From a virus: a DNA stretch of 44,156 nucleotides. Below the pieces are notes generated by a model. That model saw only the letters and a program-made list of their open reading frames with translations. It did no database searches and had not been told where the DNA came from. The DNA is taken from the IMG/VR virus record IMGVR_UViG_3300034152_000193, positions 1 to 44,156 of that record. One strand, written 5' to 3'. The position numbers were made by a program, and so were the translations under genes. Of this stretch, positions 472 through 36,578 are shown piece after piece; the first letter of the stretch is position 1, and the number at the start of each line of letters is the position of its first letter.

Positions 472-927
472 CTACACGTCCTTGTCGGGATTCTCGGCGT
501 TCTCGATTCGCTCACTCAATTCTTGACCGATCTTGTTGAGTTCAATCTCAACGCCGTCCAAAATGTCCTTGGCCTTCGTTGCCACACGAGCGGCTGTTTC
601 AAATGTAAAGCCCTCGATGTCGGCGCAGTCGGCGACGTCGTAGATGAGGCGAGCAATACCGAGTGTCTTCTGTGATTTCATGTACTTCGGATATGCTGCA
701 CTCATCCGCTTGCTTAGGTCGGCAACATCGAGTTTGTACTCGTTCTTAGCGACCCACAGGCCCTGGCTCAGCCCGCCGGCGAGCTGTTGCACCTTGCCGT
801 CCTGTTCACAAGCAGCCTGAAAACACTCGTCACAATAGGTCTTGCACTCTTCCTGTGCGAAGGCACAGCATGAACCGACGGCCACAACGGCCACCGCCAT
901 GATCAAAATCAAAGCGTAGTTGCGCAT
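472..927 (-). CDS. secreted Cys-rich protein with signal peptide
   Basis: A 151-aa protein. Residues 1-24 form a signal peptide: MRN, a hydrophobic core (ALILIMAVAVVAVGSCC), then AFA, a good signal peptidase I site before QEE. The mature start has a cysteine cluster (CKTYCDEC, then C at residue 40), suggesting disulphides or metal binding outside the cytoplasm. The remainder looks helical and ends in an acidic tail. Start codon is preceded by AGGAG. It is the last gene before a strong terminator. It could act in envelope modification or superinfection exclusion, but the family is unrecognised. The stop is TAG. Confidence 0.75.
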   Translation of the reverse strand: MRNYALILIMAVAVVAVGSCCAFAQEECKTYCDECFQAACEQDGKVQQLAGGLSQGLWVAKNEYKLDVADLSKRMSAAYPKYMKSQKTLGIARLIYDVADCADIEGFTFETAARVATKAKDILDGVEIELNKIGQELSERIENAENPDKDV

Positions 928-929
928 GG

Positions 930-1484
930 TTAGAAACTCCTGCAGCGGTCATAGTCAAACAGTACCCACCGACCATATGTCTCATCATCGAATCCGAACG
1001 CAACATCACGTAAATACTGATACACATCTTGCCATGTCGGGAACATCATTTGCCAAGGCACTTCGCCGAACAACCAATCCGGGCATTTTTGGAGTCCACT
1101 CTCAATGTGGATGATGATTGGTTTCCGTTGGTCGTTGGCTAGAAATAGCTCACGATATGTCCCGCACATATGGACTTCAACGTCAACGTGCACAACAAGA
1201 AAATCGCTAACGTCAACCATACGTAAATCCACATGTCTCAACTCCCTAACGTGTTTCGCAATTTCCTCAAATTGTCCGCGTTTCTTAAGTTCGGCACGTC
1301 GCTGATGATTTTCCAAGTCTTCGCAGCCGATGTCGCAAGGCTTGTGCGTGGGATCGAGCCACGTGACGCCTAGGTCTTGCATCTCCTCTTGAAGCCGGAC
1401 TCGCCAACCAACTCCACCATCGGCAACCCGGTCCATTGGTCCTGCGAGGTACGCACGGGCCGCTTTGAGTCTAGACTCAAACAT
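930..1484 (-). CDS. nucleoside 2-deoxyribosyltransferase-like protein
   Basis: A 184-aa protein. The N-terminus reads ARAYLAGPMDRV and then GVGWR, the nucleotide-binding start of the nucleoside 2-deoxyribosyltransferase family. Further on DVSDFLVVHVDVE is followed by HMCGTYREL, matching the family's segment with a glycine-threonine turn and catalytic glutamate. Known relatives move deoxyribose between bases or hydrolyse deoxynucleotides, so this fits the nucleotide-salvage theme. I chose ATG at 1484; a frame from 1547 is possible. A perfect 18-bp palindrome starts just after this start codon. Confidence 0.65.
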   Translation of the reverse strand: MFESRLKAARAYLAGPMDRVADGGVGWRVRLQEEMQDLGVTWLDPTHKPCDIGCEDLENHQRRAELKKRGQFEEIAKHVRELRHVDLRMVDVSDFLVVHVDVEVHMCGTYRELFLANDQRKPIIIHIESGLQKCPDWLFGEVPWQMMFPTWQDVYQYLRDVAFGFDDETYGRWVLFDYDRCRSF

Positions 1485-1591
1485 AATGATATTAACTCCA
1501 AGTTGTCGCGGTGAATAGGGTGTCCGTACCGGCCAACGAAAATCCATTCGTCATCAAGTCCTAATCGGGCGCGTAAATTCAATGAATCCAT
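1370..1591 (-). CDS. possible small overlapping ORF
   Basis: A 73-codon frame beginning MDSLNLRARLGLDDEWIFV, bridging the GNAT gene end (1554) and the deoxyribosyltransferase gene. Its first half fills a 70-base gap, but its second half overlaps 115 bases of the clearly coding gene. The early residues look protein-like and the tail does not. It may be a short real gene or an out-of-frame artefact. Confidence 0.3.
   Translation of the reverse strand: MDSLNLRARLGLDDEWIFVGRYGHPIHRDNLELISLCLSLDSKRPVRTSQDQWTGLPMVELVGESGFKRRCKT
1464..1481. promoter_or_regulatory. perfect copy of the dispersed 14-bp palindrome
   Basis: TTTGAGTCTAGACTCAAA is an 18-bp perfect palindrome containing the 14-bp core at 1466-1479. 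On the minus strand it begins one base after the ATG at 1484, so a bound protein would cover the start of the deoxyribosyltransferase-like gene. Confidence 0.6.
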
Positions 1592-1949
1592 GTTTTATGA
1601 GCCTTGAAGTGAAGCCTAGTCGTGCGAGAAACTTAGAGCCAATGAGGTTTGATTCAGGAATCGTGATTCTTAGAACGGTTTTTCCTTTATCAATGGCTCG
1701 CTGCACAAGCCATCGGATGACCTGAGTACCTCTACCTTGCCTCCGCAGGTCTTGGCGGATAACAATTTTTTCGATTTCAATCACTGTTCCCTTGAAGCGA
1801 TAGCTGAAGAAACCCTCACCGTCGCCAACCATGCGAATGGCTACGTGCTCCGGCAAATCCGCCCAGTCATACACACCTGGGCCGTAGACTTCAAAGTCCA
1901 TTTCTTCCAGCTTGATCGCTGCAACCTGATCTATGATTTGGTTGGCCAT
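1554..1949 (-). CDS. GNAT-family acetyltransferase
   Basis: A 131-aa protein. The acetyl-CoA-binding motif A is visible at about residues 66-80 (VIRQDLRRQGRGTQVI, matching V-x-x-x-x-R-x-x-G-x-G/A). A C-terminal ESNLIGSKFLARLGF matches the motif B helix (N-x-x-A-x-x-x-Y/L-x-x-x-G-F). GNAT enzymes transfer an acetyl group to amines of small molecules or proteins; the substrate here is unknown. It overlaps the upstream gene by 19 bases, indicating translational coupling. Confidence 0.8.
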   Translation of the reverse strand: MANQIIDQVAAIKLEEMDFEVYGPGVYDWADLPEHVAIRMVGDGEGFFSYRFKGTVIEIEKIVIRQDLRRQGRGTQVIRWLVQRAIDKGKTVLRITIPESNLIGSKFLARLGFTSRLIKHGFIEFTRPIRT

Positions 1950-2611: not shown

Positions 2612-3559
2612 TTAACACTCCTTAAGGATGTCGTCAACCTCATTAGGCTTGGTGTGGGTATCTTCGAGTAACTGCAAATACGCATCACTTTCTTCGCGAC
2701 TTCGATCGCGGAAGATGTGGCCGCTGTCAATGATCGACCAAATCTGACCAACTCGTTCCATGAGTCGGTACTGGTAGACTGGCTGAATCTTGAGCCGGTG
2801 AGAGCTGATTCTTGAACAGCCGGGACCGGTGATCTGGTCAATGCCAAAGATGACCTTCTCAGAGCCGATCTCTTCACCGAGCAACCATGAGTATATACTC
2901 AATTGGTCGGCCCAGTGCTTGTTTCCATCCTCCAAAAACATCATGCAATTGATGTTGATTCCTTTGAACGCTACAACCATCGCATCCTTGTGTTGCTTCC
3001 GTGTCTTGCCGTCTCGACAACACGTGTAGCCCTTCATCGGGCTCGTGTTTCGGTGGCTACAGTATCCATTGACCTTCCAGTCGTACACCACACGCACGCC
3101 TTCGGCGTTGATGAAGTAGCAGTCTGGTTTGCCGAGCAACGGAGCGTACCACTGATCCATACGTATGGTATCTTGAACCGAGAACTCAAAACGCGGCGGA
3201 CCGATGGCCGTTTGAAGCTCGGTCATGAGATCCGCTAGCGCGCCCCATTGCTGGTACTTTTCAAAGCAGTCCTGTCCAGCTTGTCTCGCAAAGTCTCGGT
3301 TGTGCGGCTCGACTTGCTGTTCGAAAATGGTGTCGCGTTCGTACTCACCATTCGGGCCGAAGTTGCCCATCAACGCCTTATACAGATAAGACTTGACATA
3401 GGCATCGAACGCTGAGCCGACGGCCATCGGTTCCGTTTGTGGCGGACGTGGTGGTCGGTTTTTCAAGAGATACTTAACCGCGTAGTCTTCAATGTCCTTC
3501 TCGAATGTGCTGATTGAGCTAGGACTTAAAAACTCAGGCTTCCTCATTTCGTATGTCAT
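2612..3559 (-). CDS. PD-(D/E)XK nuclease, RecB/Cas4-like
   Basis: A 315-aa protein. An N-terminal LSPSSISTFEKD resembles the entry helix of RecB-type nucleases. GSAFDAYVKSYL (residues 48-59) sits where these enzymes usually have a G-x-x-x-H motif. The core GKPDCYFI...VVYDWKVNGY supplies D and D-x-K of the PD-(D/E)XK site. Later SIYSWLL fits the Q/Y-x-x-x-Y helix. Such phage nucleases act as 5'-3' exonucleases in recombination or host DNA breakdown. Four cysteines (CSHR, CC, CMM) are scattered, with no clear iron-sulphur spacing. ATGA overlap with the upstream gene. Confidence 0.7.
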   Translation of the reverse strand: MTYEMRKPEFLSPSSISTFEKDIEDYAVKYLLKNRPPRPPQTEPMAVGSAFDAYVKSYLYKALMGNFGPNGEYERDTIFEQQVEPHNRDFARQAGQDCFEKYQQWGALADLMTELQTAIGPPRFEFSVQDTIRMDQWYAPLLGKPDCYFINAEGVRVVYDWKVNGYCSHRNTSPMKGYTCCRDGKTRKQHKDAMVVAFKGININCMMFLEDGNKHWADQLSIYSWLLGEEIGSEKVIFGIDQITGPGCSRISSHRLKIQPVYQYRLMERVGQIWSIIDSGHIFRDRSREESDAYLQLLEDTHTKPNEVDDILKEC

Positions 3560-3897
3560 TGGACAGTGTACCCCACTACGACAACGGTGTCTTTGATATT
3601 GAAATCAGAGTACGCGGTGTGCATGGCCTTTTCGAGGCCGCTGCGGTCACGGCACTGCGGGTCGTGCTCATACGAGTACACTTGATTCGGGATTTCGTCG
3701 AACACGCAAACCAAAATGAAGACACATTTCGCGTACGAGTAGGGACCGGGATTATTAGTTTTGACGATCTTGAATATCTGACTGGGAACCAGCTTGTCCC
3801 GCCACTTGAGACCGCGGCGCACTGTGGTGTTCAAGCCAAGCCTGTGCGTGCTGCGCAAGAACTCCATGACTTCAATAGAGGCGTCTTTTCTTTCCAC
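3556..3897 (-). CDS. hypothetical protein (113 aa), GTG start
   Basis: The GTG at 3897 has AGGAG 9-10 bases upstream; an ATG at 3867 (MEFLRSTHRLGL) is an alternative with a weaker ribosome site. The middle (GLKWRDKLVPSQIFKIV) and a beta-rich end (DTVVVVGYTVQ) faintly resemble small ASCH/PUA-like folds, which bind RNA or modified nucleotides. This is only a shape impression. Confidence 0.55.
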   Translation of the reverse strand: MERKDASIEVMEFLRSTHRLGLNTTVRRGLKWRDKLVPSQIFKIVKTNNPGPYSYAKCVFILVCVFDEIPNQVYSYEHDPQCRDRSGLEKAMHTAYSDFNIKDTVVVVGYTVQ

Positions 3898-5693: not shown

Positions 5694-6132
5694 CTGTACT
5701 CCCCATTCTACCTTCGCCACGTATCGTTGCGTCGAGTTTTGTTACTTCTTTCGGAAGTACCGGACCCATGAAACACGGAACAAAAAGTACCTGAACAACC
5801 GCAGCTCCTTGCTCCACGAACATGAGTTTATTGCTGAAATTGTAAACAACAGCTTTCCACTCACCACGATAATCAGGGTCGATGACTCCTGCGAAACGAT
5901 GTATGTTCTTAGCACCTAAGCTGCTTCTGTCCCACACTTGGGCTACCCAACCACGTCGGAAGCTGCATCTGATTCTAAAATCAACGATCACCGATTTATT
6001 CCGCTCGATGTTGAACGGATACGGCGCATACAGGTCGTAACCCGCAGCACCAGGAGTCCCTCGTCGAGGAAGGTAGCCACCATCTTCGACCAGGAACTTA
6101 GGTCTTGGGCCAAAGATCAGCGAACAGAGCAT
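5521..6132 (-). CDS. dut: dUTP diphosphatase with unusual C-terminal extension
   Basis: The five dUTPase motifs can be traced in order: GAAGYDLYA (1), DRSSLG (2), GVIDPDYRGEW (3, catalytic Asp in a D-x-D-Y-R-G segment), the segment around QGAAVVQVLF (4) and RGEGRMGSTD (5, usually RGxGxFGSTG). It hydrolyses dUTP to dUMP. Homologues normally end just after motif 5, but this frame stays open for over 50 more codons, entirely inside thyX. The tail is low in hydrophobics and probably not structured. The phenylalanine of motif 5 is Met here. RBS GGCGGAGT precedes ATG 6132. Confidence 0.9.
   Translation of the reverse strand: MLCSLIFGPRPKFLVEDGGYLPRRGTPGAAGYDLYAPYPFNIERNKSVIVDFRIRCSFRRGWVAQVWDRSSLGAKNIHRFAGVIDPDYRGEWKAVVYNFSNKLMFVEQGAAVVQVLFVPCFMGPVLPKEVTKLDATIRGEGRMGSTDDTRKAKFHGINRPNADGPRIHRAGGPDVLQIRGQDHGRQRLRILQEDQGPGTRECD
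5970..5983. promoter_or_regulatory. dispersed 14-bp palindrome, exact copy
   Basis: TGATTCTAAAATCA inside the dUTPase gene, matching TGAKTYYRRAMTCA exactly. Confidence 0.5.
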
Positions 6133-8054
6133 ACTCCGCCCTCACATTCCAGTGTTGTGTCAACGTCGCTCACATTTTCTATTTCCAACCGACCAAACGG
6201 CTTAACCTCAGAAGCCAAGGCTTCGTACTCTTCCTCGGAGACTGGCTGAATCGGTGCCTGCTTGAATCCGTGGTCCGTGGCAAGTAGGAACGAGCAGCCT
6301 TTGATATTCTCGTCGTACTTGTTCGCGAGCCATTCCTTGATCGTCCCCACATCCTCTGGCTTGTAATAATGTGTAGCAGAAACGGCATTGTCGCTCCACC
6401 ATGTTTGAAGGATACACTGGTTCGTTAAGGAATCGGTAACTCGTGTATGTTTAGCCAAAACGGCGTCAGTCGAGTGTTTAACCGGGAATGTCACAACCAT
6501 CGTCGAGTGATCCGGGCGGCCGTCAAGCATGAGTCTGGGCTCAACCGGATAACCAGCTTCACGGCAGGCTTCGACAAGTGGGTTGTTGGCTGCAAAACGC
6601 ATCGTCCTGTAGATGAAGTGTCCAAGTGCCGGATGTATGCCAGGTGTGCAACCTGATAATAAACTCAAAGTTCCCGACGGTTTGATGGTTGTGATTTTCC
6701 GACTCAGTGGACAACCCAGCAAGCGGCTATGATCCTCGTCAACTTGTTTCAGGTGCTTGTAGACCTTATCAAGGTGCTCGGCATTCGGGAACGCCTCCAT
6801 AACACCCGTTAGGCTTACCCCAGTGCGGTAGTTCCGATGCACGACGGCATTGACGCTGGGATCGGAGTATCTTGCGTTGGCGATCGTCTTACAGGCTTTG
6901 AACAGGATTGCTGCGACCTGTTTGAACATTGTAAGACTGGTAATTCGTGGAAGCACGATTTCTGCGAGGTTACAGGGCTCTCTGTCTTCGAGTGTAATCT
7001 CACCACAGGGGTTGACTCCAACCACGAGCGGGTCGGCCGTAACCCTTCGTCCGTCAGCCAGTCGTCCGAATTCCCGGCAATTCCTGAGGCTAACAAATCC
7101 ATATGGCTCACCGTCGCCATTATATCCCTCCCAAAAGCGATCACCCTCCAAATCTGCGAAGTGGTCTAGTGCGATACTATTGTTTGAGGCTGTTCTCCAA
7201 TCTGGGATTTGCTGCCTCTTCCAGTTCTTAGCGTTCAGGAACTCACGGTCCTGGTGGTCGCCGATAGCTATTTGGCTGCAACGCCTTACGTTGCCGCTTC
7301 TAACAATTGATCCTACGATGTTCATAACATCGAGACAATCAATGGGGCGTAGCTTCTGGCCGAGCCTTGATCGGATGATGTGGATGATTTGATTTATCCC
7401 ATCGACCAAGGGCTCGCTACCAGAAGCAATACCTCCAAATCGGCTGATCTTGGTTCCTTGGGGCCTGATTGCTCTCGTGCAGTATTGCAGACGCTTGCCG
7501 GTGACGAAAAATGATTCTAAAATCTCTTCCAGAAGTTCAACCCAGCCTTCGCGATTGTCTGTGACAATGAGATCACAGTCCCAAGTGTCAACACGCTCGA
7601 TCAGCGGGATCTTTGTAATGCGCGGAAGCTCATACACGTACTCAGGAAGGATGTTGAAACCAACGCCGCCGCCCAACATAAGCTGATTGAAGGCAAAAGC
7701 AAAGCTACTAAGCTGATTGCAGGCAACGTGCCAACAATTCTGAAGACTGTCCGCTCCCACTTCGCGTACCGTTTCAGTGCCAAGCTGCCAAAGTGCGCGA
7801 CCAGAAACGAGCCCACGCAGATGAAACAGTGTATCATAAAGGTATTCGAGTTCATTTTGTGTGAACAAACCTCCGAGTTCGATGAGGCCGCTGCAAACAC
7901 GAGCACAAGTCTCATGCCACTCCTCCAAGCGCCCGGTGGATGTTTGACGAGCGTACGTCCGCTTATACGTTATGTACCCGATCGGTCCCCACGGCACCGG
8001 TTTGCCCGTATATTGCTTGAGGAACGTCTTCGTCAGTCCTTTGCTGTACTTCAT
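6117..8054 (-). CDS. nrdJ: class II (adenosylcobalamin-dependent) ribonucleoside triphosphate reductase
   Basis: A 645-aa monomeric enzyme closely following the Lactobacillus-type reductase in order: YITYKRTYAR near the N-terminus, QNCW (first active-site Cys), GGGVGF, NREGW, FGGIASG, VNPCGEITLE with the thiyl-radical Cys, EPCNLAEI (second redox Cys), WSDNAVS, and a C-terminal CEGGVC shuttle pair. It reduces NTPs to dNTPs and needs vitamin B12 cofactor from the host but no oxygen. Shorter than the 739-aa reference. I choose ATG 8054 (MKYSKGLTK), directly next to a palindromic site; an open frame extends to 8135. Confidence 0.93.
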   Translation of the reverse strand: MKYSKGLTKTFLKQYTGKPVPWGPIGYITYKRTYARQTSTGRLEEWHETCARVCSGLIELGGLFTQNELEYLYDTLFHLRGLVSGRALWQLGTETVREVGADSLQNCWHVACNQLSSFAFAFNQLMLGGGVGFNILPEYVYELPRITKIPLIERVDTWDCDLIVTDNREGWVELLEEILESFFVTGKRLQYCTRAIRPQGTKISRFGGIASGSEPLVDGINQIIHIIRSRLGQKLRPIDCLDVMNIVGSIVRSGNVRRCSQIAIGDHQDREFLNAKNWKRQQIPDWRTASNNSIALDHFADLEGDRFWEGYNGDGEPYGFVSLRNCREFGRLADGRRVTADPLVVGVNPCGEITLEDREPCNLAEIVLPRITSLTMFKQVAAILFKACKTIANARYSDPSVNAVVHRNYRTGVSLTGVMEAFPNAEHLDKVYKHLKQVDEDHSRLLGCPLSRKITTIKPSGTLSLLSGCTPGIHPALGHFIYRTMRFAANNPLVEACREAGYPVEPRLMLDGRPDHSTMVVTFPVKHSTDAVLAKHTRVTDSLTNQCILQTWWSDNAVSATHYYKPEDVGTIKEWLANKYDENIKGCSFLLATDHGFKQAPIQPVSEEEYEALASEVKPFGRLEIENVSDVDTTLECEGGVCSVR

Positions 8055-11226: not shown

Positions 11227-11902
11227 GAATTCCAAGCTCCACGTGATAACGATTGATCTGTTCGTCTTCCTGACGTGACCACTTGTTGATAAGAACTGAG
11301 TTTGGTGCCTCCCATGTCAAGTGTGCCCAATCGAACTGACTGTACCAGTTGATTTCGTTGGTTTGAGGAACATCTTTCCCGTCGAGGTACTCGCGAAGCT
11401 CGGTTGGCCGTGTGAGTCTAAGATCAAGAAACGTCCCGTACAGATTGACACGGTTCTCAAGGCAGCGAGTCACCTGGACGTGCAGCTCACCCAGATACAT
11501 GAGAAACTCACGATGCACCTGGATTGCACCTGACATCGGACCACCGGCTACCAAGGTTCGACGAGTCTTCGTCATAACCTTGGCCCAAGATTTAGTACGA
11601 TGGTTCTTACGCGGTAGGTGGATACCCAGATACCGAGCGTAGCTGAAGTTGTTTCTGGCAAACGCTGCGGCGTAGGCCAATTCCCTGTGAGCCGTACAAA
11701 GCCGCTGCGCGGATTCCGAGTATCCGGGTTCCACTTGCCACGGAATATCCGCCGGTCCCTTCAACATTGGGAACTGGAGTCGTGTGGGCCAACCGTCCGG
11801 GTTTGCTCTTGCGTCGATTGGTTCCATTTCTTCTCTCAGGTGGCACCTGTTGTCGGTTCTGAAACCGAGTTCGTGCTGCGGGAACGGTGATGGGCGTTTC
11901 AT
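11213..11902 (-). CDS. hypothetical protein (229 aa)
   Basis: Unrecognised. Basic N-terminal half with LCTAHRELAYAAAFARNNF and KNHRTKSW, a helical middle (AIQVHREFLMYLGELHVQV), and a Trp-rich C-terminal region. No signal peptide or membrane span. Its ATG overlaps the upstream TGA (ATGA). Confidence 0.65.
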   Translation of the reverse strand: MKRPSPFPQHELGFRTDNRCHLREEMEPIDARANPDGWPTRLQFPMLKGPADIPWQVEPGYSESAQRLCTAHRELAYAAAFARNNFSYARYLGIHLPRKNHRTKSWAKVMTKTRRTLVAGGPMSGAIQVHREFLMYLGELHVQVTRCLENRVNLYGTFLDLRLTRPTELREYLDGKDVPQTNEINWYSQFDWAHLTWEAPNSVLINKWSRQEDEQINRYHVELGIHGKS

Positions 11903-16279: not shown

Positions 16280-16643
16280 CGCAATACTCCTCAACTTCGC
16301 AAAGAAGGGCACGTCCAGACTCCGAGGGTCGCACGACTCTCAGTGACCTGACACGAACCTTATCATCCACAACCTCACACTTTTTGATGACATCGCGGCG
16401 AGCCCGCGTCATCAGCACGCATTTCCAGCCGATGCTGTGGTCATCATTCTCACCGCGAACGTACCATCCGAGCGTGTCGTCCAAGACCTCGGAGACAAAG
16501 GCTCGACCGTATACAAACGGTGGCTTGCCTTCCTCGATCTGCACGTGCAGTATCACGGGCGAGTCGTCATACGTCTTGAGAATGTCACCAGCCTTCGGCG
16601 GATTCTCGACGGTCTCTTTGTACTTCGATAACAAGTCACTCAT
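16245..16643 (-). CDS. hypothetical protein (132 aa)
   Basis: Starts MSDLLSKYKETVENPPKAG, then a beta-rich region (SPVILHVQIEEGKPPFVYG, GWYVRGENDDHSIGWKCVL) and a basic stretch. No family recognised. Overlaps the sigma-like gene's stop by 8 bases, so both are probably co-translated. Confidence 0.6.
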   Translation of the reverse strand: MSDLLSKYKETVENPPKAGDILKTYDDSPVILHVQIEEGKPPFVYGRAFVSEVLDDTLGWYVRGENDDHSIGWKCVLMTRARRDVIKKCEVVDDKVRVRSLRVVRPSESGRALLCEVEEYCDETTGSESENG

Positions 16644-17190
16644 TCTCAAGTCTCCTGTAGCGCTTACGAATGGCAGCGATTCTTCGGAAAATGTTGCCCT
16701 TGTGAAGGGCCAAACGGTGTCCAATCTCAGTTACGCTGTGACCGGTTTGTAGCAAGTCCACTATTTCCCGGTCAGTTCTATCCTTTGTGATAGCATTGAC
16801 CGTTTCTTCAACTGTGACCGCCGTGTGCTGAGTATAACCAGCAGCGTCATCCTCGTGCAAGTCAAAGTGAAGATACGGTGAACCATCCTTATCAGAAATG
16901 TACTCCTGTCTCCTCTGTGCCCTCCTCACATCTCTGTGTATGAAGGTTGCGATGTAGGCGTCTGGGCTGTCGTGTGTGAGTTTGCCCTCAGCAATGTAAT
17001 GAACTGCTTTGACTACAGCGAACAAGGCAACCGAACATAGTTCTGACCGGTTTCTACACCGTTTCACTACGGACATTGCAAGTCGCATGTGTCCTTCGAT
17101 CATTTCATTTATTGCCGCGGGGTCTCCTCTCTTGACAGCTTCAGTCACGGTGGGGAGCCGTGACTTCTTAATCCTTGGCGGCAGTCTCAT
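16636..17190 (-). CDS. sigma-70-like RNA polymerase factor
   Basis: A 184-aa protein. Residues 22-90 match sigma region 2: IEGHMRLAMSVVKRC, then ALFAVVKAVHYI and DAYIATFIHRDVRRAQRR, the last resembling the -10-melting segment. Residues 135-180 form region 4: DREIVDLLQTGHSVTEIGHRL followed by IFRRIAAIRKRYRRL, a helix-turn-helix for -35 contact. Small phage-encoded sigma factors direct late transcription; with the window's non-standard -35 sequence (about 33.4-33.75 kb) this is a natural candidate regulator. Neither region is long enough for a full housekeeping sigma. ATGA coupling on the 5' side. Confidence 0.75.
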   Translation of the reverse strand: MRLPPRIKKSRLPTVTEAVKRGDPAAINEMIEGHMRLAMSVVKRCRNRSELCSVALFAVVKAVHYIAEGKLTHDSPDAYIATFIHRDVRRAQRRQEYISDKDGSPYLHFDLHEDDAAGYTQHTAVTVEETVNAITKDRTDREIVDLLQTGHSVTEIGHRLALHKGNIFRRIAAIRKRYRRLENE

Positions 17191-18555: not shown

Positions 18556-18753
18556 CTAACCTCCAAAAGCATCCAACGCGAACTCGATTTCCTTATGACT
18601 AATTGAAACTCCGTTGCTGAAGTTGACGTGTGTCCTGGTGATACCAGTGACTTTGACGATCTGCGGTTCCGCATCAGGATCAATCAGATCACCGTTGCTT
18701 GTGAGTTTGACCTCAGTCCCGATTCCCAAAATGTGTCTTGAGTTTGAACTCAT
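18556..18753 (-). CDS. first gene behind the consensus promoter (65 aa)
   Basis: Starts MSSNSRHILGIGTEVKLTS. Short beta-rich protein resembling an SH3-like or YopX-type small phage protein (EVKLTSNGD, QIVKVTGITRTHVNF). ATG 18753 with GTGGAG 9 bases upstream; the frame could also start at TTG 18774. The start codon itself lies in an exact 14-bp palindrome (ATGAGTTCAAACTCA), 50 bases downstream of a perfect promoter. It is the likely first product of an early transcript. Confidence 0.65.
   Translation of the reverse strand: MSSNSRHILGIGTEVKLTSNGDLIDPDAEPQIVKVTGITRTHVNFSNGVSISHKEIEFALDAFGG
18739..18752. promoter_or_regulatory. 14-bp palindrome on the start codon downstream of P18.8
   Basis: TGAGTTTGAACTCA; on the minus strand its T is the T of ATG 18753. 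It lies about 40 bases downstream of the predicted start of transcription, a classic roadblock position. Confidence 0.6.
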
Positions 18754-18800: not shown

Positions 18801-18829
18801 ATTATACTATATTTTCGAGCGCTTGTCAA
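18801..18829 (-). promoter_or_regulatory. consensus sigma-70 promoter (P18.8)
   Basis: On the minus strand TTGACA (18829-18824), a 17-base spacer, and TATAAT (18806-18801) are both perfect. Transcription would start near 18794 and read the 18556-18753 gene and on leftward. Exact 14-bp palindromes flank it at 18739-18752 and 18868-18881. It suggests a strong early promoter under repression. Confidence 0.85.
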
Positions 18830-18881: not shown

Positions 18882-19055
18882 ATCGTAGAATTTCACAAGT
18901 TCCATCACATCAATCGAGTCTGGACTCACGTGCGTGTGAACACTCATGTAGTTAGCCGTCGCGACAACGATCGCCCAACGCTTCAACGGACGCGGTAGCA
19001 AGCGCGCCCAGAAATGCCAAAACCGACTGTGATCTTTACCATGCCACTTGAACAT
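18879..19055 (-). CDS. 58-aa hypothetical protein
   Basis: Frame from ATG 19055: MFKWHGKDHSRFWHFWARLL, then PRPLKRWAIVVATANYMSV. A strong RBS (AGGAGACGGAG) immediately precedes it and it overlaps the sulfotransferase stop by 20 bases. Aromatic and basic at its N-terminus with a hydrophobic helix in the middle, possibly membrane-associated. Missed by size-limited gene callers. The last gene before P18.8. Confidence 0.65.
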   Translation of the reverse strand: MFKWHGKDHSRFWHFWARLLPRPLKRWAIVVATANYMSVHTHVSPDSIDVMELVKFYD

Positions 19056-19533
19056 CTCCGTCTCCTGTGATTTTGATCTCGGGAAGTGCTATTCCTGGAA
19101 TTACCTCTTGGAATGGCTTACCGTCGCGGACCTTACCTTTGCCGCGATGTGGAATCTCAGTTCTAGGCCAACCTACCTCATCACAGAACACATCGAAATC
19201 ATCTTGTAGGTGCTCGAATCGCAGGACGTGTGTCGCATATGGCAGACCGTAGAACATTCCACGATCAAGCCACATGAAATCGGATTCTTGCTCCAGCCAA
19301 TCGTGGAAACTACCCTCAAAATGTCGTCGCACGTAATACCACGAAACAAGGGTGTCGAATGCGTTGCGCACAACACATCCGACTTTCCAATCAGGACGAA
19401 GGATCTCAGGACTTACACCATGCTTTGTCCCTACCAGTTTCAGGTTCATCCCGTTGAATACTGAAGACAATGAAGTCGAGGCTGCCCTCGGATGTAAGAT
19501 AAAAGCTGCCTTGCGTGCGTTATCCACGTACAT
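19036..19533 (-). CDS. sulfotransferase-family protein
   Basis: A 165-aa protein. The PAPS 5'-phosphosulfate loop is AAFILHPRAASTSL (K/R-x-A/G-x-T-S pattern), and the 3'-phosphate motif is VVRNAFDTLVSWY, close to VRNPFDRLVSAY of Sulfotransfer_2 enzymes. These transfer sulfate from PAPS to carbohydrates or other hydroxyls. ATG 19533 places the loop near the N-terminus; the open frame to 19626 overlaps the upstream gene. At 165 aa it is shorter than most (200-300), so it may be a minimal or partly degraded enzyme. The target could be host surface glycans or phage DNA/lipid. Confidence 0.8.
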   Translation of the reverse strand: MYVDNARKAAFILHPRAASTSLSSVFNGMNLKLVGTKHGVSPEILRPDWKVGCVVRNAFDTLVSWYYVRRHFEGSFHDWLEQESDFMWLDRGMFYGLPYATHVLRFEHLQDDFDVFCDEVGWPRTEIPHRGKGKVRDGKPFQEVIPGIALPEIKITGDGDVQVAW

Positions 19534-19573
19534 GCGTGTGCGCCTTAAAAATAAATATTGAACGTGCCCGCGC

Positions 19574-20185
19574 CTACGCGAAGCGAGGTGGCCCTTTGTA
19601 TGCGGCTGGCATTTCTTTGAGTCCAATCTTGTCAGGGAAGACCGGCTCGGGTTTCAGGTCTGTCCTACCGCGGTTCACGATTGCGTTCAGGAAACTTTGT
19701 CCGAGTTTGTGCTCATTTTTCATAAAGACGTAGAACGTGGCGATTTTGATCGGCGGCTTTTCCTTCGGCAGTACCGGACCAGACGGATCAAGCCAAAGCT
19801 GCTTTTCACTGTCCCAAGCGACAACGTGCCACCAGTTCTGGTCCCACCTTTGCCCGTAGACGACGCCGTTGTACCTCTTGAGGTAGTTCTCGACTCTGGC
19901 ATATGCCTTCTCTCGCTCAAAGAGTTCTCGGGTTTGCACGCCGTCCGACGTCACCACAGGGATTGTTTCAATCGGAGTTATTGACCACCCACAATTGAGT
20001 GCAAAATCAATAATCTCCTGAATGTCGAAACCGGCACGGCACATCGGCTCCCGTAGGTCAGGAAACACGATCTCGGACCCATCGTGCCCAATGCCATCAA
20101 TTAGCTCTTGGATCTCAATGTCCATGACCATAGCCGCTGCGGCTACACTGCATGACCATCTATTCGGTTGTCCCCGGAATCTCAT
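19574..20185 (-). CDS. cysteine-peptidase-like (C39/papain-fold) protein
   Basis: A 203-aa protein. The N-terminus GQPNRWSCSVAAAAM mimics the Q-x5-C active-site helix of C39-type peptidases (Cys12). WWHVVAWDSEKQLWLDPSG supplies His and Asp in the usual order. No signal peptide. Such domains cleave double-glycine leaders or process peptides; here it might process a phage protein or act on a host one. The C-terminal 50 residues look like a basic extension. 26-base overlap with the upstream gene. Confidence 0.65.
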   Translation of the reverse strand: MRFRGQPNRWSCSVAAAAMVMDIEIQELIDGIGHDGSEIVFPDLREPMCRAGFDIQEIIDFALNCGWSITPIETIPVVTSDGVQTRELFEREKAYARVENYLKRYNGVVYGQRWDQNWWHVVAWDSEKQLWLDPSGPVLPKEKPPIKIATFYVFMKNEHKLGQSFLNAIVNRGRTDLKPEPVFPDKIGLKEMPAAYKGPPRFA

Positions 20186-23794: not shown

Positions 23795-26067
23795 GATTGT
23801 AAGTCTTCCTCCCATTCGATTTTAATCAGAGGAATAATGTCAACGTAGCGTGAGACTTCTTCTTTAACGGTTCGAGTGATTTGTTTACTGATTTTAGGAT
23901 CAGCGGCAACCATGATCTCGTCATGGACATTCATAGGAGCGACGAGCCAAGGAGCCACGCCCGCAGGTTGTAGATCCCAAACTCTGCGCTCGACTGCTTT
24001 CGTAATCCCCGCCCCAGTAGACTGGATGACGTGGTTTGCGGCAGCCCGCATATTGTTGCCTTGCAATCCGAAGGCCGCGCCAAAAAGAGCGCTTCGACAT
24101 GCGCCTGAAGCCGTTTGCTCGCGATCTCGACGCACAACCTTGATACGGACCTGCTTCCATTCGTCAGGAGGGTCGTTGGCAAGGTCGTATAGGGCCTTAC
24201 ATATTTGATTTTCGAGGGTGAAGTACCGTCGGAATCCGAGGAGTGATTCAATGTAGTCTCGTGGTTCATGCCATATAACCTTGCTGCCGATTCCACCCGG
24301 TTGACGCATCGAGCAGAACCAATCAATGACTTGTTTGCGTGCTTTTTCAACTCCCGGATATCGTTTGTAGAATCGGTCGAATGTTTCTTCTGCTGCTTCC
24401 TTCGTTACACCAAGTCGATTGACAAGTGTGTTAGCGTCGCCACCATAGTTCAAACCGAAGACTGCTCGTTTTCCTTGAGTATAGTAGTCAATACCCGACT
24501 TTGCACCCTTAGAACGCATGACAGTATCATAATCAAGATCCGGGTAAATGCTCTGAGCGAGTAAAGCGTGAATCTTCTTGCCACTTTTGAGATCATCCTC
24601 AAGACCTTTGTCTTTGTAAACGGCACAAGAGATAACAACCTCAAAGGACCAGAAGTCGCCACCATCAAGCTGCATACCAAGGTCAGCAAGTGTGAAGCAA
24701 CTTCTCACGTATTCCGAGCTTATGATGCCTTGCGGATTAAGACCATCAGCGCCTGACATCCGGGTTGAAAGCGTTCCGATGACAACAAATGATGCGTGAA
24801 ATCTCCCTGCTTGGATGAGCTTGTCATAAAGCTCAACCTCTTTCTTTGCTTTACGGGCGTCCCTGACGGCTCGTGCTCGCTCAGCGACTGGGTGTGGGTT
24901 TCCTTCTTCATCTTCCCAATAGTCCGTGAATTTTTGGGTTTCTTCGTCCAGCTTACCGCCGATCTCTTCTAGCACCACATCTTTGGTGCCTCGGAGATCA
25001 AGTATTTTGATTTCATCCTCATCCATGACTTCCCCGAGCCAGCGTTTCACCGCAGTCGGGGCAATGGGAGCCTTGGCAGCACGAACAAGGGCGTCGGATC
25101 TTTGGGCTTTGACCTTTTCGAGATCAACCGCGTACCCACGCCACCTTACAGCGCCGACCATACACGCGAGTTCAGAATCATCGTCACCGGCCACAGCATC
25201 GGCAAACTTCTCGTGTTTGTGAAGACCGCGCGTGTAAATGACATCATTCGTAGCGTATCGTTGGGCAAGTTCGTTATACCGCCAATGATCAATATGGAAC
25301 TTAATGACCTCTGGCCATGTACCATTCCATCGACCAGGACGACCCCAAGTCAAGGCAAAAGGCGCGTATCCGCCATTTTCTCCTCCCTCATATGGTCTCA
25401 GTTTTGCGGGCGGATCAACATCCGTGAACTTGAAAATTAACTCTTCCTTTACCCCGAGCAAATGTTGTGCGAGAGATTTTAGACTCATGTCCGGCTTGAA
25501 CTTGAGTACAATATCTCGGAACTCAGGATCTTTGTTCCCGTCTCTGTCTTCGTTGTCGGCAATGTTCCACTGTGGAGCGGTCGGGTCTTTCCGATTGTTG
25601 AAGTAAATACCGTCGAGTTGAACTCGGTTTGCTAATTCAGAACGCAGACGCTCCGCCATGATGGACGGAACTCGCTTGACTCGAATATCCTTTCGCGCCA
25701 TGAGACACTGGTACGGTCCCTTGCGGGCGTGCAGCATCAGATCCAGTGCGGCCTTCGGCTTGATGCAAAGTCCTTCGGTCCGTGCTCGTTCTTCAAGAAC
25801 GGCCAGTTCCTCAATGTGATCCTCTGGCAAAGCATCGTAGTCATGGAACAAGCTGAAGGTCGTATAGAGTTTGGAAATATGGAACCAATCAAACGTGAGA
25901 TTGAACCCACAAACCTCATTCTCGCAGAACCACTCGATCAGCTCCAAAGTCTCTTGGATCGGCCGCTTCCACACATGATGCAGGACAACCGGACCATCAT
26001 CCTCGGCATATTGAATCAGGACGCACATGCCGTGCAGTCCACAAGTTTCAGTATCGAAGTAGATCAT
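23779..26067 (-). CDS. family A DNA polymerase with 3'-5' exonuclease domain
   Basis: A 762-aa replicative polymerase. The exonuclease has FDTETCG (Exo I), GFNLTFDWFH (Exo II) and YATNDVIY (Exo III). Polymerase motif A is LDGGDFWSFEVVI, motif B KRAVFGLNYG with the template-contacting Lys, Tyr and Gly, and motif C MNVHDEIMV with the HDE catalytic acid. There is no 5'-3' exonuclease. Length is near T7 gp5 (704 aa). Motif A replaces the usual DYSQIE by GDFWSFE. ATGA overlap couples it to the gene upstream. It would work with the primase-helicase on the opposite strand. Confidence 0.93.
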   Translation of the reverse strand: MIYFDTETCGLHGMCVLIQYAEDDGPVVLHHVWKRPIQETLELIEWFCENEVCGFNLTFDWFHISKLYTTFSLFHDYDALPEDHIEELAVLEERARTEGLCIKPKAALDLMLHARKGPYQCLMARKDIRVKRVPSIMAERLRSELANRVQLDGIYFNNRKDPTAPQWNIADNEDRDGNKDPEFRDIVLKFKPDMSLKSLAQHLLGVKEELIFKFTDVDPPAKLRPYEGGENGGYAPFALTWGRPGRWNGTWPEVIKFHIDHWRYNELAQRYATNDVIYTRGLHKHEKFADAVAGDDDSELACMVGAVRWRGYAVDLEKVKAQRSDALVRAAKAPIAPTAVKRWLGEVMDEDEIKILDLRGTKDVVLEEIGGKLDEETQKFTDYWEDEEGNPHPVAERARAVRDARKAKKEVELYDKLIQAGRFHASFVVIGTLSTRMSGADGLNPQGIISSEYVRSCFTLADLGMQLDGGDFWSFEVVISCAVYKDKGLEDDLKSGKKIHALLAQSIYPDLDYDTVMRSKGAKSGIDYYTQGKRAVFGLNYGGDANTLVNRLGVTKEAAEETFDRFYKRYPGVEKARKQVIDWFCSMRQPGGIGSKVIWHEPRDYIESLLGFRRYFTLENQICKALYDLANDPPDEWKQVRIKVVRRDREQTASGACRSALFGAAFGLQGNNMRAAANHVIQSTGAGITKAVERRVWDLQPAGVAPWLVAPMNVHDEIMVAADPKISKQITRTVKEEVSRYVDIIPLIKIEWEEDLQSWAEK

Positions 26068-32288: not shown

Positions 32289-33275
32289 TCAGTCTTGCGC
32301 TGCCTGCTTGGCCTCGTACTCTTCCTTGGCCTTCGCGGCGGCTTCGGCGGCTTCCTTCGCCTTCTTCTCTTCGCGCTCGGCCTTCCGCTTGGCCTTCTCT
32401 TCCTCGATACGCTGACGCCGCTCATTCCAAGCAGCCTCTTGCACCTGCACGCTGACAGGATCAAGATTCAGCACCCACTGAAGGGCGAGGTAAGCCGCGT
32501 CTTCCTTGGTGTCGCAGTCAGCGACCAGCGAGGACACGACAGTGCGGCTGGCGAGTTCAGACTCAATATCGGTCTTCTTGCGAAGTCGAACCGTGGGTTT
32601 GAACTCAGGCTTGCTCGCTTCCTTACCCTTCTTCTCGGCTTCCTTGATTTCCTTCAGGCGGGTGGTCACGAGCGGGCCGAACTCGGTCGTCGGCATGGAC
32701 ATCGCACCGTCAATGTAGTTCATCTGCTCCTCGTGAGGCAGCTTCGCCAACACAACGGCGTTCGATACCGCGATCTTGCCTTCATCAACGAGAGCCTGGA
32801 CCTGCTGCTCCAACTTGAGCAAGTTGAAACGCTGGCTCAGCCACGTCGGGCTCCGGTGAACACGATTCGCCAGATCGACCATCGTCCACGTCGGGTTGGC
32901 CGAAATGATGCGCTGCAAGTGCTTCGTGTACTGGACCGGCTTCGTCTCGACACGCATCGCGTTGCCGATGATCTGAGCCAAGTGAGCCTCGGTCTCGTCA
33001 AGATTCTTGACGAGGACGGGGATCTCGCTGAGTCCAACCTCAGAAGCAGCCGTGTACCGGTGCAGGCCGTCGATGATCTCGTAAAACGTAACGGTGGTCC
33101 CTTCAACGTCTTCGGTTCGCTCACGAACGTTGATGGGGTTCAGAATACCGATCGAAGGATCGGCGATCGAGTCCCGGAGTTGGATATAGTCTTCGGACTC
33201 TCGATCAACGGAGCGGAGGGCGACCGGATTCGGTCGAATGTCGGAGATGGGAACTACTGCTGTGGTTCCACTCAT
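32289..33275 (-). CDS. ParB-like protein with HTH (first gene of the leftward array)
   Basis: A 328-aa protein. IGILNPINVRERTED and YEIIDGLHRYTAASEVGLSEI match ParB boxes with G-x-H-R replacing G-x-R-R. An HTH follows (WTMVDLANRVHRSPTWLSQRF). Then come charged linkers and a long Lys/Glu/Ala coiled coil at the C-terminus (RKAEREEKKAKEAAEAAAKA). ATG 33275 is preferred over 33290 because GGGAG lies 8 bases upstream. Being first behind the minus promoter and next to the putative origin, it may control or segregate the replicon. Confidence 0.85.
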   Translation of the reverse strand: MSGTTAVVPISDIRPNPVALRSVDRESEDYIQLRDSIADPSIGILNPINVRERTEDVEGTTVTFYEIIDGLHRYTAASEVGLSEIPVLVKNLDETEAHLAQIIGNAMRVETKPVQYTKHLQRIISANPTWTMVDLANRVHRSPTWLSQRFNLLKLEQQVQALVDEGKIAVSNAVVLAKLPHEEQMNYIDGAMSMPTTEFGPLVTTRLKEIKEAEKKGKEASKPEFKPTVRLRKKTDIESELASRTVVSSLVADCDTKEDAAYLALQWVLNLDPVSVQVQEAAWNERRQRIEEEKAKRKAEREEKKAKEAAEAAAKAKEEYEAKQAAQD

Positions 33276-33337
33276 ACTTAGTTCTCCCATGAAATTGAAA
33301 AGAAACTCAAAACGTCTTGGAGGTCGTTTCCATTTTC

Positions 33338-33351
33338 TGAGTTTGAACTCA
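33338..33351. promoter_or_regulatory. 14-bp palindrome in the leftward 5' UTR
   Basis: TGAGTTTGAACTCA lies about 60 bases downstream of the predicted leftward start of transcription and about 60 bases before ATG 33275. Exact match. Confidence 0.6.
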
Positions 33352-33413
33352 AGTTGCCGGTTTCAAAAACTCAACTCAGAATTCCATCTGAATGGAAATC
33401 CTCCCGCTACTCT

Positions 33414-33442
33414 ATTATAGCCCGAAAATCGCGAATTGTTGC
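33414..33442 (-). promoter_or_regulatory. leftward twin promoter
   Basis: Minus strand TATAAT at 33419-33414, with GCAACA 17 bases upstream (weak -35, 3 of 6 to consensus) embedded in TTCTGCGCAACAATTCG. The same element recurs on the plus strand at the right arm. Transcription should start near 33407. Confidence 0.7.
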
Positions 33443-33489
33443 GCAGAATTTTATTCAATTATATTATATACACGCACGCGAGGAATCAT

Positions 33490-33516
33490 CGTAAGTTGTT
33501 GCTATCAAAGGACTTA
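33490..33516. repeat. iteron copy 1
   Basis: 27 bp beginning CGTAAGTTGTTGCTATC and ending GGACTTA. The ends TAAGT and ACTTA are inverted, so the repeat is a dyad with 15 bases between arms; the next bases extend it to CGTAAGT/ACTTACG. Identical to copy 2. Confidence 0.85.
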
Positions 33517-33553
33517 CGTCGCCTGTTAAATTGACTAGTGTTTTTAGTTACGT

Positions 33554-33580
33554 CGTAAGTTGTTGCTATCAAAGGACTTA
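33554..33580. repeat. iteron copy 2
   Basis: Identical to copy 1 over all 27 bases; starts 64 bp after it, about six helical turns. Confidence 0.85.
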
Positions 33581-33684
33581 GGTGCAAAGTTACAGGTTAT
33601 GTCGCGCCACTTACTGCTATATATTTTATTGAGTTGAGTTGAAAGCATACGGGCAATACAGAAAATATGTAACCTGTAATTCGA

Positions 33685-33711
33685 CGTAAGTTGTTATTAT
33701 CAAAGGACTTA
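33685..33711. repeat. iteron copy 3
   Basis: Differs from copies 1-2 at two adjacent central bases (TTGTTATTATC for TTGTTGCTATC). Starts 131 bp after copy 2 and runs one or two bases into the right inverted-repeat arm. Confidence 0.85.
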
Positions 33712-33720
33712 AAATTCTGC

Positions 33721-33749
33721 GCAACAATTCGTGTAAACTGGGCTATAAT
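33721..33749 (+). promoter_or_regulatory. rightward twin promoter
   Basis: TATAAT at 33744-33749 with GCAACA at 33721-33726, 17 bases apart. Same upstream element as the leftward promoter, so both probably answer to one regulator. Transcript starts near 33756 and reaches the primase-helicase ATG at 33900. Confidence 0.7.
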
Positions 33750-33799
33750 AGTCTAGACAACCATTCTATCTAAACACATAAAACACTGATTTGAGTTCT

Positions 33800-33872
33800 T
33801 GAGTTCAAACTCAATTTCCCATCTTCGCCTCTGAGTTCAAACTCAATCCTTAATGTTCTGAGTTAAGAATCA
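33800..33872. promoter_or_regulatory. three tandem 14-bp palindromes (operator cluster)
   Basis: Exact copies at 33800-33813 and 33832-33845 (TGAGTTCAAACTCA) and a one-mismatch copy at 33859-33872 (TGAGTTAAGAATCA). Centre spacings are 32 and 27 bp. They lie between the rightward promoter and the primase-helicase start, downstream of transcription initiation, as in roadblock or stoperator systems. Confidence 0.7.
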
Positions 33873-33899: not shown

Positions 33900-36578
33900 A
33901 TGCCGTTGCAGACCGAGGCTATCAAGGTTTTCCTTGAGGCCAACACTCACGCTGACTTAGCAGCTCTTTATAATGCGGAAATGGAAGTCCAGGTCAATGC
34001 CGCCCAAGATGGTGGTGTCAGAATCACTGGGGAGTACCAAGGCCGCCAATGGAACGGATGGGCCGATCCTGACGATCCAGCTCTAATCTGGAAATCGTAT
34101 CGTATTCCCTACAAAGCAAAGACCAATCCTGAGTACAAACCCAAAAAACAATCTTGGCCTCTGGGTTTGCACGCCGAAGGGATTGGAATGACCGGGTGGA
34201 ACTGGGTCAAGAAACAGAGTATCTGGGTTGCTTACGACTTTGACTCTGTTGCGAATCACAAACAAGGACTGACGGCAGAAGAACTGGAAGCAGTTAAGAA
34301 CGCCGTTATGTCGATTCCTTGGATCACGGTTCGCATCTCAACGTCTGGGAAAGGAATCCACTTCTACACGTTTCTCTTGTCGGTTGCTACCGCCAACCAC
34401 ACCGAACACGCTGCGCTCGCACGTGCGATTCTCGGTATGCTCTCCGCTAAAACCGGGTTTGATTTTCAAAGCAAACTCGACGCCTGCGGTGGGAATATGT
34501 GGGTCTGGCACCGCAAGATGAAGGACACCGATGGGCTTAAACTCATTAAGAAAGGTTCCATCTTACGTGAGATTCCAGCCAACTGGAAAGATCACATTGA
34601 CGTTGTTCGTGGCAATCGTCGCAAATGTCTGCCTCGTTACGTTGAACAAGACGAGATAGACGAGTTCGAGGAACTATGCGGCACGCGCCCGCGTATCAAG
34701 CTCGACAGTGCGCATTTGAGATTACAATCATTTTTGGACGACAATAACGCTCAATGGTGGTGGGACAAGGATCACTGGATGATGGTCTGCCACACCGCTG
34801 ATCTCAAAAAGGCACATACTGAGCTTGATCTCAAAGGGATCTTTGAAACAGTCGCACAAGGCAAGGAACGTGGAGCCGATCATAACTGTTTCGCTTTCCC
34901 GCTACGCAAGGGAGCGTGGACCGTGCGTCGTTACACCCCAGGTGTAGGCGAACACGCATCATGGGAGCAGGACGGCACGGGTTATACTCGCTGCTTCTAT
35001 AATCAAGAACCGGATCTCAAAACAGCCTCACGCTCGCACGATGGCGTTGAAACTGAACAAGGCGGTTTTGAATTTACGGAAGCCGAAGTCGCAAAATCCG
35101 TAGCCACGTCGCTCGGAGCAAATGTTAGTCTACCGCCGTGGGCAGCCGGTCGTCGTACTATCCTGAAACATCACAAAAAGGATGGCCGTTTGATCGTTGA
35201 GGTCAAACGCGAATCCCAAGATAATGGTGGTGATATGTCAGGATGGCGCGAAGACAAAGGTTGGTGGAAACGTATCTATAATACCAAAGTTACGCCGGTC
35301 ACTGAACCTGAAACGGGCAATTATGACGACGTTGTTCGTCACTTGATCACAGACGGTGGTGATGACTTTGGCTGGGTCATCAACGCTGGCGGTGGTTGGC
35401 AAACGGAACCGTTGAACCATGTCAAATTGAGTTTGAAATCACTGAACTTCAACGACCGTGAGATTAGCACAATCCTCGGTCAATGTGTCATGCGCGGCTG
35501 GACGTTAGTAAACAAGCCATTTGAAGACGAATTCCCCGGCGACCGCCAGTGGAACCGCGGCGCTGCACAGTTGAAGTTCAAACCCAAACTGGATGAACCA
35601 TTCATACATCCGACCTGGACTCGTGTTCTCGATCACGCGGGCGCTGGGCTCACAAAGACTATAGAAAAACACCCTTGGTGCCAAACGAATGGCATCCTGA
35701 CGGGTGGTGAGTATCTCAAGTTATGGGTCGCATCGTTGTTTCAAAAACCAACGGAGCACCTGCCTTATTTATTCTTCTTTTCAGAGGAGGAAAATACAGG
35801 AAAATCAACGTTTCACGAAGCAATCAGCCTGCTTATGACAAAGGGTTATACGCGGGCGGACGCTGCTTTGACTTCAAACTCAGCTTTCAACGGCGAACTT
35901 GAAAACGCCGTTCTTTGCGTCGTGGAAGAAGTTGACTTGTCTCAGCATAAGCAGGCCAGGAATCGAATGAAGGATTGGGTCATGGCCGAGCTTCTGCCAA
36001 TCCACAAAAAGAACCAAACGCCTTACCACATCGTTAACACTACACACTGGGTCCAATGCGCAAACTATGAATCATACTGTCCAATCTTCCCAGGTGACAC
36101 GCGCATAACAATGTGCCACATGCGCCCACTGACTGAGGCTGAACTCATTCCTAAAGTTCAACTTATGAGCATTCTGGAAAAAGAGGCTTCAGACTTCCTC
36201 GGTGCGTTGATGGCCGTTGAGCTACCGCGGTCAAATTCTAGGCTCAGTATTCCAATCATAGAGACGCAAGAAAAGAAACAAACCTCACGCAAAAACATGA
36301 ACGCTCTGGAATTATTCATTGAGGAATGTTGTTTCCACATTCCAGGTTCCATGACTGAGTATAAAATCTTTTGGGAAACCTTTTTCAATTGGCTTGACGC
36401 TGAGGAAGCGGGCAACTGGACCAAAATCCGGGTGGGACGAGAATTGCCGAGGCGATTCCCGAAGGGCCGCAACATGAAGGATAAAGCCAAATTCTATATC
36501 GGAAACGTGAGTCTGGACTCAACGAGACCAGACAATGAAACTCCTTGGGTCTTAGATGGAGATAAATTGGTACAATGA
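33900..36578 (+). CDS. primase-helicase: AEP-like primase fused to SF3/D5-like helicase
   Basis: An 892-aa fusion. The N-terminal primase has WVAYDFDSV (metal-binding D-x-D) at about residue 107 and RISTSGKGIHFYTF (S-G-x-G-x-H), the archaeo-eukaryotic primase fingerprint. The C-terminal ATPase has EEENTGKST (Walker A, about 630), LCVVEEVDLSQH (Walker B) and WVQCANYESYCPI (sensor-like). A helical, Trp-rich linker joins them. It would prime and unwind DNA at the origin just upstream, feeding the family A polymerase. ATG 33900 has GGGAG upstream. Its stop overlaps the next start (ATGA). Confidence 0.88.
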   Translation: MPLQTEAIKVFLEANTHADLAALYNAEMEVQVNAAQDGGVRITGEYQGRQWNGWADPDDPALIWKSYRIPYKAKTNPEYKPKKQSWPLGLHAEGIGMTGWNWVKKQSIWVAYDFDSVANHKQGLTAEELEAVKNAVMSIPWITVRISTSGKGIHFYTFLLSVATANHTEHAALARAILGMLSAKTGFDFQSKLDACGGNMWVWHRKMKDTDGLKLIKKGSILREIPANWKDHIDVVRGNRRKCLPRYVEQDEIDEFEELCGTRPRIKLDSAHLRLQSFLDDNNAQWWWDKDHWMMVCHTADLKKAHTELDLKGIFETVAQGKERGADHNCFAFPLRKGAWTVRRYTPGVGEHASWEQDGTGYTRCFYNQEPDLKTASRSHDGVETEQGGFEFTEAEVAKSVATSLGANVSLPPWAAGRRTILKHHKKDGRLIVEVKRESQDNGGDMSGWREDKGWWKRIYNTKVTPVTEPETGNYDDVVRHLITDGGDDFGWVINAGGGWQTEPLNHVKLSLKSLNFNDREISTILGQCVMRGWTLVNKPFEDEFPGDRQWNRGAAQLKFKPKLDEPFIHPTWTRVLDHAGAGLTKTIEKHPWCQTNGILTGGEYLKLWVASLFQKPTEHLPYLFFFSEEENTGKSTFHEAISLLMTKGYTRADAALTSNSAFNGELENAVLCVVEEVDLSQHKQARNRMKDWVMAELLPIHKKNQTPYHIVNTTHWVQCANYESYCPIFPGDTRITMCHMRPLTEAELIPKVQLMSILEKEASDFLGALMAVELPRSNSRLSIPIIETQEKKQTSRKNMNALELFIEECCFHIPGSMTEYKIFWETFFNWLDAEEAGNWTKIRVGRELPRRFPKGRNMKDKAKFYIGNVSLDSTRPDNETPWVLDGDKLVQ
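35428..35441. promoter_or_regulatory. dispersed 14-bp palindrome, exact copy
   Basis: TGAGTTTGAAATCA inside the primase-helicase gene. Confidence 0.5.
36508..36521. promoter_or_regulatory. dispersed 14-bp palindrome, exact copy
   Basis: TGAGTCTGGACTCA in the last 70 bases of the primase-helicase gene, upstream of the dNMP kinase. Confidence 0.5.

Follow-up and report, generated by a model that had tools for sequence, protein, structure and literature searches.

The closest precedent for the system described here is provided by the phage-encoded sigma factors gp36 of phiEco32 and gp47 of phage 7-11. These two sigmas are only 15% identical and recognise unrelated promoters (tAATGTAtA and GTAAtg-16-aCTA, respectively) located at similar genome positions, and the early genes of both phages use host sigma70 promoters (PMC8948821, PMC4331800). 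Phage 7-11 is devoid of a gp79-type inhibitor of host sigma70 transcription (PMC8948821).

The window analysed here, i.e., the whole 44,156-nucleotide stretch of virus record IMGVR_UViG_3300034152_000193, likewise encodes a sigma factor. It further resembles the phiEco32 strategy in the predicted host-type sigma70 promoter 1.6 kb upstream of the sigma gene and in the small number of putative phage-specific promoters before later genes, three copies of one element being recognised by sequence in a near-identical record. Unlike in phiEco32 and 7-11, one element is shared by the late operon and a divergent promoter pair flanking a putative origin, the promoters keep the -35/17/-10 layout, and many lineages are involved instead of two.

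Two other groups of regulators are comparable. Like Group 4 (ECF-type) factors, the sigma of the window is short, comprises sigma2 and sigma4 without regions 1.1 and 3, and matches PF07638 above the cut-off; unlike them, the sigma of this clade is very divergent, with 13–35% identity within the clade. The promoters of the window resemble primary-sigma -10 boxes, not typical ECF motifs. The presence of a protein with ParB_N and HTH_ParB domains, together with dispersed, putative palindromic operators near promoters, recalls KorB/ParB of IncP plasmids, although the palindrome found here, TGAGTTYRAACTCA, presumably differs from the KorB operator of these plasmids. No description of this phage clade was found in the literature, within its partial open-access coverage.

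Mirrored promoter elements of the window

The following features define the divergent region:

33414–33453, minus strand: putative left promoter element, 22-bp block and GCAACA-17-TATAAT, directed towards the ParB-like gene
33710–33749, plus strand: putative right promoter element, 22-bp block and GCAACA-17-TATAAT, directed towards the primase gene
32289–33290, minus strand: first gene of the left operon, ParB/KorB-like protein (PF02195, 2.3e-11; PF17762, 4.4e-7)
33900–36578, plus strand: first gene of the right operon, DUF5906 primase-helicase (PF19263, 4e-13; phrog_1829 DNA primase, 3.7e-21)

The mirrored pair is genuine, and the original prediction that one element occurs in both arms was confirmed by arm alignment. 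The 47-nt arms (33407–33453 and 33710–33756) are 81% complementary and lie 256 nt apart; the highest-scoring 36-nt inverted match of the region reaches 29, whereas none of 30 shuffles exceeded 23. Read towards its gene, each arm comprises the 22-bp block TAAAATTCTGCGCAACAATTCG (33710–33731 on the right, 33453–33432 on the left), then 8 nt with one match, then the 12-bp block GGGCTATAATAG. The -35-like hexamer GCAACA (33721–33726 in the right arm, 33442–33437 in the left) and the -10 hexamer TATAAT (33744–33749 and 33419–33414, respectively) are separated by exactly 17 nt in both arms. TATAAT is perfect and GCAACA agrees with TTGACA at 3 of 6 positions, so that the predicted combination of a 22-bp upstream block, a perfect -10 and a poor -35 stands, as does the assignment of the left arm to the ParB-like gene and of the right arm to the primase. 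An unmatched stretch between the blocks was also correctly predicted, except for its length, which was given as 9–11 bases and is 8 nt, one of them matched. Seven of the nine mismatches between the arms fall within this stretch; identical blocks flanking eight diverged nucleotides point to selection on contacts, not to a recent copy. The reading of the arms as putative divergent promoters is well supported by their correct orientation, the 17-nt spacer and a third copy placed in the same direction before a late gene.

A third copy at the head of the late operon

Record G001 (also L019; 60,442 bases) is 99.93% identical to positions 11282–44156 of the window and reaches into the structural genes. 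It contains a third copy of the element, TTCTGCGCAACATTTAGTCATTTCTGGGCTATAATAA, at position 3525 on the plus strand, also with GCAACA-17-TATAAT. This copy shares 29 of 33 positions with the consensus of the two arms, compared with 21 for the next-best site in the genome and a maximum of 22 in shuffled genomes, and it repeats the block pattern of the arms, with matched flanks and a diverged middle. It faces a gene for a 192-aa TerS-like protein, which heads the packaging/structural operon of G001; the genes for the terminase large subunit and the portal follow about 5 kb further on. The idea that mirroring serves balanced expression of the two arms found no support, the same element also standing alone before the late operon. 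Besides this copy, the putative palindromic operators and the sigma gene described below go beyond the original prediction.

Homologues of the gene behind the third copy were found in 18 genomes. In one of them, G010, the gene is preceded by a third copy of that phage's own element (33/38); the genes behind the copies in G001 and G010 are homologous (E 4e-24), while the elements share little. The 350 bases preceding the late gene were scored against every phage's arm regions. A phage's own arms were the strict best match in 10 of 17 cases, with about one expected, and the tested late region of the other seven had no strict own-arm match. Scores on the diagonal reached 32, against an off-diagonal mean of 22.0 (sd 1.1, n=272). 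A whole-genome scan revealed further element copies in G029 (35/37), G033 (27/29), and G014. The late copies and the matching to own arms indicate a low-copy promoter class, located at the putative origin and the late operon, that changes coordinately between phages. In G014, two weaker matches to its private element (24/29 and 22/29) form another divergent pair, overlapping and outside the primase region, at 57862 (minus) and 57870 (plus).

Conserved layout and private sequences in relatives

Alignment of the primase identified 11 contigs in genome bins and 297 relatives in IMG/VR; 80 of the latter were retained. Six of the 11 contigs are labelled as Planctomycetota or its groups, which is a weak hint of the host. 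Counting the window, 66 distinct records were compared; in 46 of them the mirrored arms upstream of the primase beat every one of 30 shuffles, and in 26 of these 46 TAnnnT occurs at an equal offset in the two arms. These counts use an unconstrained inverted-repeat score, since detection starting from TAnnnT was faulty, often shifting the alignment or choosing iterons; some other repeats upstream of the primase in relatives are iterons and not promoters.

Conservation of the arms in relatives, on which the original prediction had staked its claim, extends to the arrangement and not to the sequence. The arms read GATTAGAGAAAAGTAGGAAATnnGCGTATTATATGATGG in G010, GGACAAAAAG..G.AAAAACCGTATATATAAAT in G006, and ATGTTACTATAG in L015, and GCAAC[A/T/C]-17-TAnnnT was found only in the nearest relatives of the window, namely L004, L005, L011, and G012 (late promoter). 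Because the element is private, a DNA search with its 61-nt sequence matched none of 12 other relatives. A sigma70 position-weight test of the arms gave mixed support, p ≤ 0.05 being reached in only about 15 of 43. We therefore do not extend the -35/-10 interpretation to all relatives. A collection-wide scan for GCAACA-N13-GGCTANNATA returned at least 120 matches, and none among the matches listed carried the core replication genes of the clade. A relative with a 41%-identical primase (L012) has an upstream region without the divergent ParB arrangement, in which no mirrored arms were found.

The phage sigma factor

Two features of the minus strand are relevant to the recognition of the element:

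16636–17190, minus strand: divergent sigma70-family factor of 184 aa, sigma2 and sigma4 with a flexible linker at residues 103–123 (PHROGs, Pfam, PDB profile, AlphaFold2, Foldseek)
18801–18829, minus strand: predicted host-type sigma70 promoter with perfect consensus (TTGACA-17-TATAAT), on the strand of the sigma gene and 1.6 kb upstream of it

By its domains and fold, the 184-aa protein is a sigma70-family factor. It has a weak sigma match in PHROGs (phrog_351, E 2.6e-5) and matches PF07638 (Sigma70_ECF) over residues 16–180 with 22.6 bits at a cut-off of 21.1. Iterated profile search recovered orthologues in about 20 related genomes; among 18 orthologues, Sigma70_r2 was detected in seven and r4_2 in nine. 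Compared with PDB, the family profile matches SigF (5.3e-24), FliA (1e-15), and SigA (3e-15). The AlphaFold2 model (pLDDT 87.8) comprises helical domains at residues 1–98 and 127–183 joined by a loose linker, and its best Foldseek matches are sigma factors, including an RpoS sigma2 fragment (TMt 0.78). Some relatives possess two sigma-like ORFs: G019 (5943–6599, minus, and 24426–25070, plus), G017, G032, and G033. No single-subunit phage RNA polymerase family was detected among the scanned proteins of the window and G001, which cover part of their ORFs.

Across 18 genomes the mean pairwise identity of the sigma is 22%, against 52% for the primase and 53% for polA, as expected if the promoters diverge together with the sigma. 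A conserved 176-aa protein evolves equally fast (mean identity 23%), so that sigma divergence alone is not decisive and another factor could be the co-diverging partner. The only close relative of the window sigma and TerS-like protein in IMG/VR is the near-identical record G001; the closest relatives are fragments from which sigma genes were not recovered, and co-divergence could therefore not be followed in small steps.

The suggestion that a phage-specific factor reads the conserved block gained strong circumstantial support, from the sigma70-family gene conserved in the clade and from elements that are matched within phages and differ between them; no support was obtained for an activator in place of a sigma. 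The phage sigma is most likely the factor that would read the mirrored elements. We estimate the probability at about 0.7 that the arms are phage-specific divergent promoters, GCAACA-17-TATAAT with private flanks, read by host RNA polymerase with the phage sigma.

The perfect TATAAT and ideal 17-nt spacing would also suit ordinary promoters read directly by host sigma70, the matching within a phage then reflecting selection for equal strength, and near-consensus pairs do occur in relatives (TGGACA/TAGACA-17-TATAAT in L096, TTGACT in L057). This is unlikely, as the matching runs well past the consensus into the flanks, varies from phage to phage and reappears at the late operon; moreover, the -35 of the window matches only half of the consensus hexamer (3/6), the true consensus promoter lies elsewhere, before the sigma operon, and a phage sigma gene is present. 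Still less probable is the binding of another phage activator to the 22-bp block, recruiting host sigma70 polymerase while the sigma does something else. The -35 is poor, the longest conserved block covers the -35 region and extends upstream of it, and proteins of 224 and 176 aa are conserved; however, profile scans of the Pfam/PHROGs type found no DNA-binding family for these two proteins, the flanks of the -10 (GGGC...AG) are matched too, and the two blocks coincide with the positions of the DNA contacts of sigma regions 4 and 2.

If promoters read by the phage sigma are typical of its relatives, the large uncultured clade would possess one sigma per lineage and private promoters in about three copies, diverged in step, giving many dissimilar and possibly orthogonal systems; we advance this generalisation tentatively, at somewhat under even odds. 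Were it true, the transcription programme of each phage would be closed to relatives in a co-infected cell. If the main reading is right, dozens of phages offer a sigma together with the promoters that belong to it, forming a natural series for how sigma residues set promoter sequence; orthogonal expression parts could also be drawn from them. Transcription in uncultured phages could also be annotated from sequence alone, by comparing the divergent origin region with the head of the late operon.

Candidate palindromic operators and proposed order of expression

Candidate operators, to which no strand is assigned, were located at the following positions:

33338–33351: candidate palindromic operator TGAGTTTGAACTCA, between the left promoter and the ParB-like gene
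33800–33845: two candidate palindromic operators TGAGTTCAAACTCA (33800–33813 and 33832–33845), between the right promoter and the primase
18739–18752: candidate operator with the same palindrome, immediately following the host-type promoter that precedes the sigma operon

The palindrome TGAGTTYRAACTCA has six exact copies in the window (18739, 23141, 31243, 33338, 33800, and 33832) and 12 one-mismatch sites, i.e., 18 sites at ≤1 mismatch compared with 0.25 in shuffles (about 70-fold). All six exact copies read TGAGTTCAAACTCA along the direction of transcription. Palindromes are found just downstream of all three early promoters, both mirrored ones and that of the sigma operon; a degenerate third one follows the right promoter at 33859, and one-mismatch sites lie near the sigma-operon promoter at 18702 and 18868. 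ParB_N and HTH_ParB domains were identified in two ParB/KorB-like proteins, and such proteins are encoded in the left operon. The dispersed palindromes are likely operators of a ParB/KorB-like regulator. In the 240 bases around the late copy no TGAGTTYRAACTCA palindrome was seen. The third promoter of G001 lies within an inverted repeat (CATGATACCRAATCTCGGCAA, about 24 bp; approximately 3490–3620), which is perhaps a separate late operator.

The site at 18801–18829 is the only one in the window with ≤1 mismatch to the host sigma70 consensus. In 7 of 18 genomes, the 3.5 kb preceding the sigma gene include a site of this quality, compared with 1.55 expected; whole-genome scans allowing two mismatches were at chance level and were dropped. 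The presence of a host-type promoter before the sigma operon suggests the order host polymerase, phage sigma, private promoters. Host sigma70 polymerase would start at 18801–18829 on the minus strand, and the phage sigma would be made early. It would then redirect the polymerase to the element at three places, namely the left ParB-like/replication operon, the right primase operon and the TerS-like gene heading the late packaging/structural operon. Finally, ParB/KorB-like repressors would probably damp the early promoters via the TGAGTTYRAACTCA operators; both this pairing and the timing of expression we infer from the arrangement of genes and sites. Since its gene shares a strand with the left operon, the sigma might also be subject to feedback by transcription continuing from the left promoter. 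The early region also contains a weak match to a sulfotransferase family (phrog_3347) at 19036–19626.

The core between the arms

The arms enclose a candidate replication origin:

33489–33714, no strand assigned: core with three 31-nt iterons (33489, 33553, and 33684) and an AT-rich stretch, candidate origin

The iterons of the core read CGTAAGTTGTTGCTATCAAAGGACTTA. This AT-rich core with its three iterons lies between the arms beside the primase gene, and the core of relatives contains inverted repeats as well. The arms might accordingly not be promoters but the sites where a replication initiator binds at the borders of the origin. We regard this as very improbable: in many phages far-off copies are located before the late operon and point at the late gene, and 26 of the 46 significant arm pairs have -10-like TAnnnT at equal offset on the two sides. 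The late-operon copies and the shared offset led to the rejection of an origin-only role as the main explanation.

Recent inverted duplication or gene conversion as the source of arm identity is hardly credible and was rejected as the main explanation, for although arm identity is high in some phages (36/36 in L007), the concentration of 7 of 9 window mismatches in one 8-nt stretch between identical flanks of 22 and 12 bp, with the same block pattern in the third copy, refutes simple recent copying.

A second iteron cluster was found in G001 (L019) at 283–430, upstream of another ParB-like gene (692–1741, plus strand).
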